Assembly (NCBI RefSeq): GCF_900198835.1
Contig: NZ_LT900021.1
Location: 434,001 to 498,000 of the forward strand
DNA: 64,000 bases
Origin: Thermococcus henrietii
Lineage (GTDB): Archaea > Methanobacteriota_B > Thermococci > Thermococcales > Thermococcaceae
Reading direction: 5' to 3'
The translations under genes were made by a program, and so were the position numbers. Below are positions 13,726 through 20,778 of the stretch, piece after piece (the stretch's first letter is position 1; each line of letters begins with the position of its first letter). The notes under the pieces were generated by a model that was given only the letters and a program-made list of their open reading frames with translations, was not told the origin of the DNA and did no database searches.

Positions 13726-14811
13726 ATGGTATGGGAGACCCCTTACTTCTCATACGCCGTGAGGGAACTTCCGAAGGGCTGTGGGCTCTGCGTTAGGGGT
13801 GAGAAGCTCGTCCTCTTCACCACAGGGAAGTGTCCGAGGGACTGCTTCTACTGCCCGCTGAGCCCTTGGAGGAGGGAAGATGTTGTTTACGCCAACGAGA
13901 GACCCGTTAAGAGCGTTGATGACGTCATCGAGGAGGTGATGATTCAGGAGGCAAAGGGCGCGGGCGTCACCGGCGGGGACCCCCTCGCGAGGCTCGACAG
14001 AACGGTTCAATACATACGCGCCCTCAAGGAGGCCTTTGGTGAGGACTTTCACGTCCACCTCTACACCACCGGCGCTTTAGCGACCAAGAAGAACCTCGAA
14101 AAGCTCTACGATGCAGGCCTTGACGAGATACGCTTCCACCCCGACCTCTTCAATCCCAACTCGAAGCTCTTCAAGGTGGAAATAGAGAACATAAAGAACG
14201 CCTTCGACTTCGACTGGGACATCGGCGGGGAGATTCCCTCCGTCCCGGGCCAGTTCGAGAGGATGAAGTGGTACGCCGAATTCCTCGACAGCCTCGGTGC
14301 GAAGTTCCTCAACGTGAACGAGCTGGAGTTCAGCGAGACCAACCTCAGAAACCTTCTCGACAGGGGGTACCGGCCGATAAGCGACGAGAGCTCGGCCATA
14401 AAGGGTTCGCTTGAACTCGGGCTTAAACTCCTCGAGTGGGGTGAGGAAAACACCTCGCTGAGCTACCACCTCTGCACCGCGAAGCTCAAGGACGCCGTCC
14501 AGCTCAGGAACCGGTTGAGGAGAATGGCGAGGAGCGTGGCTAAGCCATACATGGAAATCACCGAAGACGGAACGCTCCGCTTTGGGATTGCCGAATACGA
14601 CGACCTGGACGAGCTTTACGAGTTCCTCGTCAGCGAGGCCGAGGTTCCGGAGGAATGGCTCCACGTGAACAAGGAAAAGGGCAGAATTGAGATGCCCGAG
14701 GAGGTGGCTTTAGAGCTGGCCGAGGCCATCGAAGGCGACGTGAGGTTCTTCATCGTCGAGGAGTACCCGACCTTCGACCGGATTGAGGTCGAGAGGATTC
14801 CTTTACCCTGA
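13726..14811 (+). CDS. Radical SAM protein (COG2108 type)
   Basis: A 361-residue radical SAM enzyme. The iron-sulphur motif is [14 protein letters not shown] (CxxxCxxC) near residue 34-45, followed by the SAM-binding [10 protein letters not shown], a HVHLYTTGA strand and [10 protein letters not shown], all typical of a partial TIM barrel. Two more cysteines near the N-terminus (GCGLC) may bind a further cluster or metal. It belongs to the group annotated as related to pyruvate formate-lyase activating enzymes, but no glycyl-radical partner is nearby and the substrate is unknown. ATG 13726 is preceded by GAGGTG. Confidence 0.85.
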
Positions 14812-14841: not shown

Positions 14842-14920
14842 ACTTATGGGGGCGTAAGTAACTTACGGGGGCGTAAGTTGTAAGGGCTTCGAAAAGGTTA
14901 TTTACCCCCGGGAATATTAA
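14842..14920. repeat. Direct repeat copy A with ACTTAC/GTAAGT sites
   Basis: This 79-base stretch aligns with 17422-17497 in the same orientation, with roughly four of five bases identical and one two-base gap. It starts with alternating ACTTAY and GTAAGT half-sites (GTAAGTAACTTAC at 14854-14866 is palindromic), then a shared TCGAAA, GGTTATTT and GGGAATATTA. On the plus strand GGTTATTTA is placed to drive the membrane protein at 14926 as a leaderless mRNA. On the minus strand the same element would read towards the end of the radical SAM gene, where no gene awaits it. Confidence 0.75.
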
Positions 14921-14925
14921 CGGCC

Positions 14926-15708
14926 ATGCGGGTCTTTGTTAGGGACTACCTCCTCCCATGGGCGTTCATCGTCGTATTTTGGCTCGTCCTCTGGCTTCTC
15001 ATCCCCCCAATGAGGGAACATCTAAACGCCGTGAACATCTTCGCGGTTTTCCTCCTTCTCATTCCGTTTCTCCTCGTGGCGCTTCACTTCGTTGGTAAGA
15101 CCCTCGAACGCTACGGCTACTCGCGGGAAGACATCAGAAGATTGCCCGAGATAATCGAGAAAACCCACGGCAGGCTCTACTTTCCAAAAGAGGTGTTTAA
15201 TATCATCGGCGACGCCATTATCTTCTGGGGACTCTTTGCGTGGGTTCTTCTGGCGACTGGAGACCCGATAATGGGACTTTTAAGCGGAGTCGCGATGTTT
15301 GCTGAAATCTTCGCCTTCTTCGTTCTTTTCGTCTCGATGGTCATTTGGGTTATTATCTTTCCCCACTCCCTTTACAGGCTCTTTACCGGGAGGGAACCCA
15401 GCAGGGACTTCCTGATTGAGCTGATAAGACAGAACCTTGTCCTCACGGCAATCCTCGTCGCGGTCAGGCTCATAGCACTCCATTCAAACTATCCGGCGGG
15501 TGATGATTTAATCGGGAAGATGATGGCCTTTGGACGGAAAACGGAGTTGGTAAGCCTGCTCCTTGAACTTTCTGGGCTGAACTTTCTCTTTGGCATTGTT
15601 AGCCTCTACGGGTCGAGGAAGAGCAGAAAGCTGACGGCGCTGGCGCTGACGGTCATCGTGTTCCTTCAGCTGTGGGTCGCGTGGAGGATTGTGGCGGACA
15701 AACTTTAA
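14926..15708 (+). CDS. Polytopic membrane protein of unknown function
   Basis: A 260-residue membrane protein with about six helices: two near residues 10-60, two around 105-150, and two or three in the last 100 residues, separated by a cytoplasmic-type segment (GKTLERYGYSREDIRRLPE). No catalytic motif or family is recognised. There is no ribosome site; the start ATG 14926 lies at the end of direct repeat A, so a leaderless mRNA is likely. It is the first gene of the repeat-bracketed mini-island, followed closely by vapBC. Confidence 0.65.
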   Translation: MRVFVRDYLLPWAFIVVFWLVLWLLIPPMREHLNAVNIFAVFLLLIPFLLVALHFVGKTLERYGYSREDIRRLPEIIEKTHGRLYFPKEVFNIIGDAIIFWGLFAWVLLATGDPIMGLLSGVAMFAEIFAFFVLFVSMVIWVIIFPHSLYRLFTGREPSRDFLIELIRQNLVLTAILVAVRLIALHSNYPAGDDLIGKMMAFGRKTELVSLLLELSGLNFLFGIVSLYGSRKSRKLTALALTVIVFLQLWVAWRIVADKL

Positions 15709-15715
15709 ATATTTC

Positions 15716-15729
15716 GTGCATGCATGCAC
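15716..15729. promoter_or_regulatory. 14-base perfect palindrome, candidate VapB operator
   Basis: GTGCATGCATGCAC at 15716-15729 is a perfect palindrome. It sits just after the TATA-like TTTAAATATT (15704-15713) and before the ribosome site GGTGG (15735-15739) of vapB, the usual place for an autoregulatory antitoxin operator. Confidence 0.6.
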
Positions 15730-15744
15730 TTATAGGTGGTGCCG

Positions 15745-15975
15745 TTGGGCAAGACGATAACGATAGCGGATGACGTTTACTACGAGCTCGTCAAGATGAA
15801 GGGGAACAAGAGCTTTTCCGAGCTTTTGAGAGAGCTCATAGGCAAGAAAAAGAAGGGCAATCTCGACGTGCTGATGATTGCCTTCGGGACGATGACGGAA
15901 GAGGAGGCCAAGGAATTTGAGAAGGAAATGAAGGAGGTTGAGGAATGGTTGAACTCTTGGACACCAGCGTGGTAA
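15745..15975 (+). CDS. vapB: VapB-type antitoxin (DUF217 family)
   Basis: A 76-residue antitoxin of the archaeal DUF217 group. The N-terminus [18 protein letters not shown] with [12 protein letters not shown] is the DNA-binding and dimerisation part; the acidic C-terminus ([18 protein letters not shown]) is the likely toxin-binding tail. I choose TTG 15745 because GGTGG lies five bases upstream; two GTG codons further up are inside that ribosome site. It overlaps vapC by 31 bases, the normal coupling. A perfect palindrome upstream probably is its operator. Confidence 0.85.
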
Positions 15976-16316
15976 TTGAACTGTTCAAGGGCAATCGGAG
16001 GGTTTCAATGCAACTCCCAGAAGATGCCGAGTATGCTCTCCCTTCGATAGTGCTCTTTGAGCTCCTCTGCGGAAAGCTCAAACCCCGACAGAGGCTGGCC
16101 CTTGAAAAGATGCCTGTGCTGAACTTTGATAGGGCAAGTGCGGAGATTGCGGGCGAGATATTCAGAGACCTGATGTCCAAGGGTCTGAGACCTCCAACAA
16201 AGGACCTTCTCATAGCTTCCACTGCCATAGCCCACAATGCGACGCTCTACACCTGCGATGAGGACTTCAAACGCTTCGAGGAGTACGGATTGAAGGTGAA
16301 AATTTTGGAAAAGTGA
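15945..16316 (+). CDS. vapC: VapC-type PIN-domain ribonuclease toxin
   Basis: A 123-residue PIN-domain toxin, a metal-dependent RNase that cuts specific RNAs when free of its antitoxin. Acidic active-site residues are seen in [14 protein letters not shown] (Asp near residue 6), LFELLCG (Glu near 40), [11 protein letters not shown] (Asp near 87) and YTCDEDF (Asp near 104). It overlaps vapB and lies inside the mini-island bracketed by the direct repeats. The toxin appears intact. Confidence 0.88.
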
Positions 16317-16367
16317 TGCGGCTGAATGGAAAAGAAAAAGCAAAAGCCCAACCAGTGTACTCGGGCT

Positions 16368-17423
16368 CTACGGTCCTCTCAGGATTAGCTTAACCACGGG
16401 GTCGGCCAGTCGGTACTCCCCGTTCTCCTCCTCAATCCACCCCATTTTCTTCAGGTTCTTGAGAAGTTCGTACAGCCTCGGTTCTGGAGTCTTCATACCC
16501 TTCACGGCGAGGTAGTCCCTTATCAGGCTCCACCTGTTGTAGCCGAGGGCTACCGCCCGTAAAATCTCCTTGTACCTCCTGCTCCTCCTTTCAAGCTCCC
16601 CCAGCTCACCGAACAGCAGGCCCTTTGCAACGTTAAGCGTCGCCTCCATTGCCTTTTCGAAGTCTTTCGTTTCAAGGTATTTCACGCCGAAGAGGACGAG
16701 CCAGCCAGGGATTCCGTCAAGGATTGATACGGCGCGGTCTATGGTCTCCTCAGACACATCAAGGCCAGCTTCTCTAAAGCCTGTTCTCAGGAACTCCTTT
16801 GAGGTTTTTCCGTCGAAGGGCCTGACGTAGATTTCGCCTCCAACCCTTCCGTAAAGCGGGCTCTCGTAGTCGTCTATGCCAAGAAAGTCGTGGAGCAGGC
16901 CGACTTCCGAGCCGGTCAGGATAATCCTGAGGTTCGGCAGACTGTCGTAGGCGTGGGCAAACAAAGCTAAGAGCTCCTTCCCGCCCCGTGAGCCGTAGAA
17001 GCGCAGGTACTGGGCCTCGTCAAAGGCTATTATGAACCTCCCCGTTTTCTCGCCGACTTCGTTCAGCTCCCTGAAGACCTCCCTCAGCGAGGCGTTCTCT
17101 GGTTCTATCTCAAGAAACCGAAGGTTCAGCTTTACCCTGAACCGGGCAAGGGTTCTCCGGAGGGGTCCCCTTTTCGACTGAATTTCCCTTATGAGATCTT
17201 CCTTCGTTATGTGCCCGCTCTCGGCGTAGAGCTCCCTGCAGTCTATCAGAATCCCGGGATTCTCGTTGAGGTAAGCCCTTAGTATCGAGCTCTTGCCCAC
17301 GCGCCTTATTCCGAGCAGAAGGGTTAGAGGATACCTCTCGACGCTTTTCTCAAGCTCCTCGAACTCTTTCTCCCTGTCAAAAATCTCCTCTCTCCTCTCC
17401 TTTGGCCTGAGGTCGAACAGCAC
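16368..17423 (-). CDS. Archaeal AAA ATPase (ATPase_2 family)
   Basis: A 351-residue P-loop ATPase of the archaeal ATPase_2 group, frequent and variable in Thermococcales. It has RPKERREEIFDREKEFEELE at the N-terminus, Walker A LLGIRRVGKSS near residue 40, Walker B RFIIAFDEAQ near residue 128, the sensor segment ILTGSEVGLL near residue 165, and a C-terminal winged helix (RLYELLKNLKKMGWIEEENG). GTG 17423 is the start, with GGTGG five bases upstream inside repeat copy B. The family is linked to mobile and defence contexts, but no function is established for this protein. Confidence 0.87.
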   Translation of the reverse strand: MLFDLRPKERREEIFDREKEFEELEKSVERYPLTLLLGIRRVGKSSILRAYLNENPGILIDCRELYAESGHITKEDLIREIQSKRGPLRRTLARFRVKLNLRFLEIEPENASLREVFRELNEVGEKTGRFIIAFDEAQYLRFYGSRGGKELLALFAHAYDSLPNLRIILTGSEVGLLHDFLGIDDYESPLYGRVGGEIYVRPFDGKTSKEFLRTGFREAGLDVSEETIDRAVSILDGIPGWLVLFGVKYLETKDFEKAMEATLNVAKGLLFGELGELERRSRRYKEILRAVALGYNRWSLIRDYLAVKGMKTPEPRLYELLKNLKKMGWIEEENGEYRLADPVVKLILRGP

Positions 17424-17497
17424 TTACGCCACCGTAAGTAACTTACTGGGGCATAAGTTATAAGGGTTTCGAAAGGGTTATTTGCCTGGGAATATTA
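17422..17497. repeat. Direct repeat copy B, promoter of the AAA ATPase
   Basis: Second copy of the element at 14842-14920. It carries ACTTAC-N6-GTAAGT, the palindrome GTAAGTAACTTAC and ACTTAC-N7-TAAGT, then TCGAAA, GGTTATTT and GGGAATATTA. On the minus strand CCCTTATAACTT is a good BRE/TATA box for the ATPase gene starting at 17423, so the ACTTAC/GTAAGT array lies at its transcription start. On the plus strand it faces only the 3' end of ileS. Confidence 0.75.
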
Positions 17498-17577
17498 GGA
17501 CGCCTGCCTTTGAAAGAAACAAAAATTGCGTGGGGGATTGTTTTTGGTTAGAACGAAAGAGAATAAGAAAGTAAAAA

Positions 17578-20500
17578 TCACCCCACCTTCTCAATCCCTA
17601 TCTTCGCCTGAACCTCGGGCCACTCGACGACGTAGCCCTTCGCCTCGCCGAAGACCACCTCAGTCGCCCTGGTTTCCTTCTTTATGTAGTCGAGGTTCTC
17701 CTCGAGCAGTTCGCGGTTCTCGTCGGTGGTCTCTATGGTGACGGCGATTCTGTCGTTCACGTCCAAATCAAGGCGCTTGCGCATCTCCTGTATCCTTCTG
17801 ACGAACTCCCTGGCGAGGCCTTCGGCGAGGAGCTCCCTGGTGAGGGTCTTGTCCACGAAGACCCTTCCACCCTCGAACTCCTCGCTAACGAAGAAGTCAG
17901 GCAGTTTCTCCTCGACTGTCAGGTGTTCCCTCGTGAGGTGGAATGTCTTTCCTTCGAGTTCAACGTCCATCTCGCCCTTCTCGTAGAGCTCCTTTCCGTG
18001 CTCGTTTATCCACGCTATCACGAGTTTGGCGTCGCCCTTGAACTCCGGACCAACTTTCGCGAAGTTCGGCTTGATGACGAGCTCGCGCTCGACCTTTCCG
18101 ACGACCACTTCTTTGGCGTTGAGTTGGTCGCGCAGGATTCTGTTGAGCCTCTCAACGGCCTTCTTTACTGTCTCGTCCTCGGTCTCGACGATTATCCTCC
18201 TGACCGGGTAGCGGAGCTTTATCTTGGCCCTTTGCCTGGCGCTTGAGCCCGCTTCGACTATCTTCCTTACCGCTTCCATCTCGCGCTCGAGCTCCTCGTC
18301 TATCGCGTTTTCGTCGGGCTTCGGCCAGTCGAGCATGTGGACGCTTTCCACGCCGAGGAACGGCCTGAGCATGTTCTGGTATATCTCCTCGGCTATGTAG
18401 GGCGTGAACGGAGCCATCAGCCTCAGCAGGACGTCGAAGACCTTCCAGACGGTGTAGTAAGAGGCCAGCTTGTCCGGGTCGTCGCCTTCAACCCACATGC
18501 GCTTCCTGATTAGGCGAACGTACCACCTGCTCAGGTCCTCGACGACGAAGTTGTATATCGCTCTCGTCGCTTTCGTCAGCCTGAAGGTCTCTATACCCTC
18601 TTCGACGTCCTTTATGAGCCCGTTGACCCTGCTGAGTATCCACCTGTCCTCCTCGCGGAACGGAAGCTCCTCGGGCTTGAGCTTGGTCGGGTCGAAGTTG
18701 TCGAGGCTCATGTAGGTGGCGCTGAGCACGTAAACGTTCCAGAGTATATTGAGCATTCTCTTGACCTGAGCCAGTCCCTTCCAGCTGAAGCGGAGGTTCT
18801 CCCAGGGGTTGGTTGCCCAGAGCATGTAGAACCTGAACGGGTCCCTTCCCTCCCTCTGGACGACCTCCTCGGGCCTTATGATGTTGCCGAGGCTCTTGCT
18901 CATCTTGTCGCCCTTTTCATCTAGAACGTAGCCGTGCATGGCGACCGCTCTATACGGGACGGTGTCGAAGGCTATCACCGAAGCGGCCTGCTGGGAGTAG
19001 AACCACTTGGTGACCTGGTCTTCGCCCTCGACTATGAAGTCGGCCGGCCAGAGCTTCTCAAAGAGCTCCTTGTTCCTTGGATAGTCGAGCGAAGCCCAGC
19101 TCGCTATACCACTGTCGAACCAGACGTCAACGACGTCCCTGACGCGCTTCATCTCCTTGCCGTTGACCCTTATGATGAAGGCATCGACGTAGGGCCTGTG
19201 CAAGTCTTCTGGGCCAAGCTTCTCCTCTATGACCCTGAGCTTTTCGTTGTAGTCCTCCGGGAGTTCAACGCGCTCGCCGTTAACCTCTATCGCAACGGCG
19301 AGCTTGACAAGCTCCTCAAAGCTTCCAACGACGTATATCTCGCCGTCCTCGCTCTGCCATATCGGAAGCGGTATTCCCCAGTACCTCTGCCTGCTTATGA
19401 CCCAGTCGCCAGAATTGAGAACGCCGTTGTCGTATCTGACCTTCACCCAGTCCGGATACCAGGTGACCTTCTCGTCGTTCTCCTTGATTATCTTGTCCTT
19501 GACTTTACTCACCTTGAGGAACCACTGGTCGGTCGCCCTGAAAATCAGCGGGGTCTTACAGCGCCAGCAGTGCGGGTACTTGTGTTCTATCGTTCCGGCC
19601 TTCACGAGGTAGCCCTTCTCCTTGAGGTGCTCGATTATCTCCGGGTCGGCGTCCTTGACGTAGACGCCCTTCCACCTGCCCTCGGTGTAGCGACCCTGGT
19701 CGTCGACCGGGCTGTAGACAGGCAGACCGTACTTCTGCCCGACCTCGAAGTCCTCCTCACCGTGGCCCGGCGCGGTGTGAACCAGTCCGGTACCGTCCTC
19801 AAGGGTTACATGCTCGCCGAGGATTACGCGGTGCGCCCACTCGTACTTCTCGCGGAACTCCCTCTGCCTCGGATACTCGTCGAGAAGGACGTGGGTATAG
19901 CGAATCCCCTCAAGCTCCTCGCCCTTGAACTCCTCGACCACCTCACCCTTGACCCCAACCTCGCTCAGAACGCGCTCGACGAGGGCCTTCGCGATTATCC
20001 AGTACTCCTCGCCGTTCTCGGTCTCGACCCTAACCCTCGCGTAGTCGTACTCGGGGTGAACGGTAACGGCTAAGTTGGCCGGAAGCGTCCAGGGTGTGGT
20101 AGTCCAGATGAGAAGATACTCTTTCTCCTTTCCTTCAACCGGGAACTTGACGTAGATGCTCGGGTCCTTCCTGACCTTGTACTCACCGCGAACCTCGTGC
20201 TCGGCCAGAGCGGTTTCACAGCGCGGGCACCAGTGCAAAACCCTCTTGTCCTTTTCCAAAAGCCCCTTCTCCCAGGCTTTCTTGAGGGTAAACCAGCCCG
20301 ATTCGATGTACTCGTTCTTTATCGTCATGTAGGGGTTGTCCCAGTCCATCCAGATTCCGAGCATCTTGAACTGCTCGGTCATGACCTTGAGGTTGTTAAG
20401 GGCGAACTCCTTACACTTCTTGATGAAGTTGTCAACGCCTATCTCGGTCTCGATGTCCTTCTTGGTTTTGAGTCCAAGGGCCTGCTCGACCTTGACCTCT

Positions 20501-20778
20501 ATCGGCAGGCCGTGCATGTCGAAGCCCGGCTGTCTGCGAACGTTGTAGCCCTGCATCGTCCTGAAGCGGATTATCATGTCCTTGATTATCTTGTTCCAGG
20601 CCGTTCCAAGGTGTATTGCACCGCTCACGTACGGCGGTCCGTCGAGGAAGTAGTACTTCGGGCCGTTCGCCCTGCTGGCCTTGACCTTCTCGTAGGTGTC
20701 GTTCTCCTTCCAAAAGGCCTCTATCTTCTCCTCCAGCTTGCCTGGGTTGTATTCCCTAAACTCCGGCTCCTTAATCAT
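17578..20778 (-). CDS. ileS: Isoleucyl-tRNA synthetase
   Basis: A complete 1066-residue class Ia synthetase charging tRNA-Ile. The HIGH-like motif is GAIHLGTAWNK near residue 53, the CP1 editing domain spans about 190-400 with TTTPWTLPANLA, the cysteine knuckle HCWRCKTP is near 405, and KMSKS (GDKMSKSLGN) near 600. The anticodon-binding domain and the long archaeal/eukaryal-type C-terminus complete it. The gene stands alone; the 80 bases between its stop and repeat copy B hold nothing recognisable. No sign of truncation. Confidence 0.97.
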   Translation of the reverse strand: MIKEPEFREYNPGKLEEKIEAFWKENDTYEKVKASRANGPKYYFLDGPPYVSGAIHLGTAWNKIIKDMIIRFRTMQGYNVRRQPGFDMHGLPIEVKVEQALGLKTKKDIETEIGVDNFIKKCKEFALNNLKVMTEQFKMLGIWMDWDNPYMTIKNEYIESGWFTLKKAWEKGLLEKDKRVLHWCPRCETALAEHEVRGEYKVRKDPSIYVKFPVEGKEKEYLLIWTTTPWTLPANLAVTVHPEYDYARVRVETENGEEYWIIAKALVERVLSEVGVKGEVVEEFKGEELEGIRYTHVLLDEYPRQREFREKYEWAHRVILGEHVTLEDGTGLVHTAPGHGEEDFEVGQKYGLPVYSPVDDQGRYTEGRWKGVYVKDADPEIIEHLKEKGYLVKAGTIEHKYPHCWRCKTPLIFRATDQWFLKVSKVKDKIIKENDEKVTWYPDWVKVRYDNGVLNSGDWVISRQRYWGIPLPIWQSEDGEIYVVGSFEELVKLAVAIEVNGERVELPEDYNEKLRVIEEKLGPEDLHRPYVDAFIIRVNGKEMKRVRDVVDVWFDSGIASWASLDYPRNKELFEKLWPADFIVEGEDQVTKWFYSQQAASVIAFDTVPYRAVAMHGYVLDEKGDKMSKSLGNIIRPEEVVQREGRDPFRFYMLWATNPWENLRFSWKGLAQVKRMLNILWNVYVLSATYMSLDNFDPTKLKPEELPFREEDRWILSRVNGLIKDVEEGIETFRLTKATRAIYNFVVEDLSRWYVRLIRKRMWVEGDDPDKLASYYTVWKVFDVLLRLMAPFTPYIAEEIYQNMLRPFLGVESVHMLDWPKPDENAIDEELEREMEAVRKIVEAGSSARQRAKIKLRYPVRRIIVETEDETVKKAVERLNRILRDQLNAKEVVVGKVERELVIKPNFAKVGPEFKGDAKLVIAWINEHGKELYEKGEMDVELEGKTFHLTREHLTVEEKLPDFFVSEEFEGGRVFVDKTLTRELLAEGLAREFVRRIQEMRKRLDLDVNDRIAVTIETTDENRELLEENLDYIKKETRATEVVFGEAKGYVVEWPEVQAKIGIEKVG

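Follow-up and report, generated by a model that had tools for sequence, protein, structure and literature searches.

What could have placed two similar DNA elements, in the same orientation, around four genes between a radical SAM gene and ileS of Thermococcus henrietii? The window, which is the whole stretch of 64,000 nucleotides that was analysed, holds these elements (E1 and E2) at 14842 and 17422, and the preliminary description took the segment between them for a small circular or modular element that had been integrated there. The elements themselves were borne out, since 14842–14906 and 17422–17486 are direct repeats of 65 nt with 83% identity at a spacing of 2580. A membrane protein (MP), VapBC and an ATPase do lie between them, as had been stated, although MP had no match in the Pfam search. 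The locus is composed of the following parts.

13726–14811, plus strand: radical SAM gene (rSAM; Pfam PF04055), the left border of the conserved site, found in 90 of the 94 genomes of the order
14842–14878, no strand: E1, double palindrome and hybrid scar, with a left flank like a 3' copy and a right flank like a 5' copy
14879–14925, plus strand: promoter side of E1 reading into MP, CGAAAAGGTTATTTA, recognized by eye
14926–15708, plus strand: MP, a fast-evolving helical integral membrane protein (AlphaFold model all-helical, pLDDT 85; 24-row alignment)
15736–15975, plus strand: VapB antitoxin (PF02697, 5e-25)
15945–16316, plus strand: VapC toxin, PIN domain (PF01850, 1.4e-14)
16368–17423, minus strand: ATPase_2, type A, with a C-terminal winged helix (wHTH) and a GTG start overlapping E2
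17422–17458, no strand: E2, double palindrome, putative operator at the ATPase start codon
17457–17497, both strands: core promoter of the ATPase predicted from the sequence (minus strand, CGAAACCCTTATAA), overlapping a relic of an MP promoter (plus strand)
17525–17563, plus strand: relic of a second MP gene, now lost, of which the 3' end remains
17578–20778, minus strand: ileS, the right border of the conserved site

The core of E in both copies consists of two tandem 18-bp palindromes, ACTTAY-N6-RTAAGT, with 1 bp between them. With at most one mismatch allowed, the window holds four occurrences of this pattern where 0.09 would be expected, a count reached in none of 100 shuffles. Only four double palindromes exist genome-wide, namely the window pair and a pair at C1:1842634 and 1843760, which brackets exactly one further ATPase_2 gene, with 43% identity between its product and the window ATPase. 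The start codon of that gene is abutted by the 5' copy and its stop codon lies inside the 3' copy, which sits between two convergent genes and therefore could hardly be a promoter. Promoter-like boxes in both directions, as claimed earlier for each element, were recognized by eye in the window, with a BRE/TATA, CGAAACCCTTATAA, leading to the ATPase at E2 and CGAAAAGGTTATTTA leading to MP at E1, where the leftward TATA is degraded to TTACAA.

The ATPase belongs to the ATPase_2 family (PF01637, residues 15–243, 82.3 bits against the Pfam cut-off of 33.2) and matches the solved chain 2QEN over its full length (E 1.9e-166), and also 2FNA. PF02697 and PF01850, together with ORFs overlapping at 15945–15975, identify VapBC as a toxin-antitoxin pair. 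A separate palindrome, TGCATGCATGCA, at 15715–15735 just upstream of VapB recurs before VapBC in relatives (G050, G055, G031 and G024, for example) and is probably the VapBC operator.

The site between rSAM and ileS was compared among relatives, which are partly represented by draft MAGs. The common order is rSAM> <ATPase E >MP >VapBC <ileS with a single E between the ATPase and MP, and was seen in G039, G042, G054, G070, G047 and further genomes, which differ in whether VapBC is present, has decayed or is missing. The locus has long existed in Thermococcus, and its common order, in which E appears from its sequence to be a divergent promoter used by both the ATPase and MP, is presumably ancestral. 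A circle holding MP, VapBC, the ATPase and one E, integrated between rSAM and ileS by recombination of E with E, might explain the geometry of the two direct repeats and the single-E sites of relatives, and a circle excised from the window would restore the order ATPase–E–MP. The geometry pointed out in the preliminary description, with one element between the ATPase and MP, therefore holds, but it equals the common order of relatives. Many Thermococcus genomes have the same genes at rSAM–ileS, in divergent order and with just one E, and relics of a duplicated module flank E2. No integrase or other recombinase gene was found between the repeats, where there are only MP, VapB, VapC and ATPase_2; the E pattern had no exact match in viral contigs, nor had the ATPase protein a match in phage records. 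Rather than a unit that is wholly absent from some genomes or resides at other sites, we found its genes at rSAM–ileS in other orders and subsets. The synteny in relatives rules out the integration of a circle or island as the main explanation, and we consider it very improbable that the four genes arrived as one inserted unit. Carriage by viruses or plasmids was also rejected, as the only protein matches, about 24% identical, were on three haloarchaeal plasmids.

The preliminary description had expected a single repeat or none between the radical SAM gene and ileS in strains lacking the island. Single-copy sites exist, with or without MP, in G030, G013, G028, G038, G040 and G043; the first five of these carry neither the ATPase nor MP, and two further genomes (G034 and G087) have no E at all between rSAM and ileS. 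Single-E sites are better explained by loss than by an integrated unit.

Two relatives connect the common order with that of the window. The near relative G024 has kept both MP genes and two copies of E in the order rSAM> E MP1> <ATPase E MP2> VapBC> <ileS, and G062 has the gene order of the window, followed by relics of MP, VapB and VapC after the second E. In the window itself, E2 is followed by a relic of an MP-type promoter at 17459–17497 and by the tail of an MP gene at 17525–17563, which scored 23.5 against the 3' end of G024 MP1, compared with a shuffle maximum of 12. The MP-type promoter and the MP tail after E2 suggest that both window copies formerly served two genes. We regard it as likely from these comparisons that E is the operator and core promoter of an ATPase_2 gene and that the window presents a rearranged, duplicated module with losses. 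We infer the following order of events, which needs no circular element. The common module would have been rearranged into the tandem double version; the first ATPase would then have been lost by recombination between its bracketing copies of E, leaving E1, and the second MP would have decayed, leaving E2 with the MP promoter relic and tail. The earlier observation that each element is used on one side only stands, yet its cause would be the loss of a partner gene, the left ATPase at E1 and the right MP at E2, and not the geometry of a circle.

MP had no convincing match in Pfam, NCBIfam or PADLOC profile searches, and its AlphaFold model (pLDDT 85) had no significant match in the PDB. Its identity between species is 50–90% in the alignment of relatives, far more variable than the adjacent radical SAM gene, and MP appears to be mosaic between lineages. 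Distant relatives of MP form tandem arrays elsewhere, as at G024:C1:1597514–1601176. Two MP lineages coexist in the species group of the window, whose MP tail resembles that of G024 MP2. VapBC of the window is nearest to that of G054 (99/92% identity) whereas its MP is just 62% identical to G054 MP, which indicates separate histories of MP and VapBC. Together with the G024-MP2-like tail, this points to more exchanges than the simplest story needs.

The other ATPase_2 genes also bear on the role proposed for E. When those of the T. henrietii genome were inspected by eye, a palindrome or a pair of half-sites was seen to separate the TATA box from the start codon in most of them, and its sequence differed from gene to gene. 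A palindrome next to the start codon reached p≤0.05 in 76 of 80 related Thermococcaceae ATPase genes and p≤0.01 in 57 of them; among 225 neighbouring genes taken as controls, these thresholds were reached by eight and one, respectively. The half-site follows the ATPase clade: types A and B share ACTTAY, type C has ACTTGC, type D GTATCG, type E GTAACG/GTAATG, type F ACTTCT and type G CACCAGT. The start of the presumed recognition helix also varies with the clade. The preliminary description had held that its reading would be refuted if the repeat were found only as a generic promoter of every ATPase_2 gene; this comes close to what was found, in that every ATPase_2 paralogue carries a version of the operator of its own. 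Similar start-codon palindromes accompany ATPase relatives in Staphylothermus, Ignisphaera, a Thermotogales MAG and a Methanoculleus MAG. The loci in the latter two (L293 and L295) share a near-identical ATPase and the same start-codon double palindrome, AGTTCTGAGGTCAGAACTGGTTCTGATATCAGAACT, which suggests that the ATPase passed recently between bacteria and archaea, or that contigs were mis-binned. A PADLOC match of the window ATPase, PDC-S27 (E 2.5e-13), was taken to reflect the common ATPase domain and serves as a lead only.

E is probably bound by the ATPase whose gene it precedes, and autoregulation through private operators is the simplest reading of these sequences. With the TATA box on one side and the start codon on the other, the tandem palindromes cover the expected transcription start of the ATPase gene, so that binding of E by the C-terminal winged helix would shut the ATPase's own promoter. 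In the common order, the ATPase on E would also control the divergent MP promoter, and both genes would be adjusted according to its nucleotide state, the presumed signal. Alternatively, an unrelated host factor might bind E, or E might be a boundary or terminator, and border ATPase genes by chance. Binding by the ATPase is, after all, what we infer, and the 3' copies between convergent genes are placed where a boundary or terminator would fit. However, a single outside factor would not make the half-sites of one genome differ from one ATPase clade to the next, and the double palindrome occurs nowhere else in this genome. We therefore hold this alternative to be very unlikely and retain the ATPase as the probable ligand of its own operator.

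Operators at both ends of the gene might explain how an ATPase could be lost exactly. In at least five subfamilies (types A, B, C, G and H), the ATPase's own palindrome stands at each end of the ORF, one copy at the start and one at the stop. A significant 3' copy was found for 22 of the 80 ATPases, in types A, B and G, and a genome scan added a bracketed case of type C (L294) and those of type H (L303, L306 and L307), a further subfamily, whose start and stop codons both lie near a different palindrome, TGGACATCCCCCATAATGGGG.... In G047, G050 and G055, the type A ORF lies between two copies of E that share 26 identical bases. Genomes without the ATPase (G043, G044, G017, G025 and others) have only one E; compared with bracketed genomes, it resembles the 3' copy on its left flank and the 5' copy on its right. 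E1 has the same hybrid character, as its left flank (14 bases) shares 71% identity with the G050 3' copy and 14% with E2, and its right flank (40 bases) shares 88% with the G024 E2 flank and 20–30% with 3' copies. Intact type B genes also carry E on both sides; where the gene was lost, one E remains at the HDAC stop codon in G043, G062, G019 and G051, that of G051 being an exact hybrid, and the junctions in G068, G023 and G027 are clean. Exact hybrid scars are thus found at two sites, of type A and type B. Recombination at the repeat, as the preliminary description had supposed, has left clean traces, although the recombining unit, an ATPase ORF with one E, is narrower than its island. The window ATPase itself has no 3' copy of E, and the lost first ATPase was therefore reconstructed from relatives. 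Type A ATPases have a second home beside a valS-like gene whose product is 29% identical to IleS (L105, L124 and L198–L202), and both homes adjoin aminoacyl-tRNA synthetase genes, perhaps by chance.

The hybrid scars reflect recombination between direct repeats or, conceivably, a unit resembling an integron cassette. Such a unit would be an excisable, promoterless ATPase ORF with one E, moved by specific recombination at E, perhaps aided by the ATPase. The presence of E at both ends of the ORF in types A, B, C, G and H, the exact hybrid scars at two sites and the retention of the promoter outside E in the scar agree with this proposal, and one ORF plus one site with the TATA outside is what types A and B have, though not the window's own ATPase. 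On the other hand, no recombinase was seen next to the sites inspected, type B keeps to one site in Thermococcus and type A mainly to two, losses are clear and no gain was seen, and ordinary recombination between direct repeats suffices for the scars. Type B was rejected as a hopping element, as it keeps its position next to IorB and HDAC/TBP in Thermococcus. We consider cassette-like movement improbable. It is equally doubtful that ATPase_2 genes of Thermococcales are self-bracketing cassettes, with each ATPase knowing its private palindrome at both ORF ends and joining in its own excision and perhaps re-insertion; if true, the operator would be the recombination site, and an integron-like system would have been built on a STAND-like ATPase without an integrase. 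Under the favoured reading, with E as operator and core promoter, recombination of E with E would occasionally delete the ATPase exactly, and the single remaining operator would still drive MP.

An apparent mini-island has thereby turned into a rule for ATPase_2 genes. This large archaeal ATPase family, with a solved structure and a function undescribed in the literature searched, seems to be made up of regulators whose operators are private and clade-specific, giving each ATPase a directly testable DNA target. The bracketing copies and scars demonstrate a route to the exact loss of single genes, in which the ATPase may take part. ATPase_2, the winged helix, VapBC, operator palindromes and loss by direct-repeat recombination are all of known kinds. 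For the private operators and ORF-bracketing copies of ATPase_2, we found no prior description in the open literature, in a search that reached few subscription papers; this absence is weak evidence for novelty.

The window ATPase is of the same family as 2QEN, named Walker-type ATPase, and 2FNA, a conserved hypothetical protein. In the literature searched, neither an operator nor a bracketing repeat was found for this family. Phr and LrpA of Pyrococcus are presented, in the passages of PMC6316755 that cite them, as negatively autoregulated archaeal regulators with an operator at or beyond the TATA box. The ATPase_2 system resembles them in that the operator overlaps the expected transcription start and the product has a DNA-binding winged helix. 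It differs in that the product is a STAND-like ATPase, the half-site is private to each paralogue, and some clades have a second operator copy at the stop codon. Integron gene cassettes comprise one ORF and one palindromic site, with the promoter outside and exact loss. The bracketed ATPase_2 unit shares all of these features, but its sites lack a known integron integrase and an array of different cassettes, and occur at the two ends, start and stop, of genes from a single family. In REP/RAYT systems, a single transposase gene has palindromes on both sides. ATPase_2 is likewise a single gene with palindromes on both sides, yet it encodes an ATPase instead of a transposase, and there are only four double palindromes per genome rather than dispersed solo copies.
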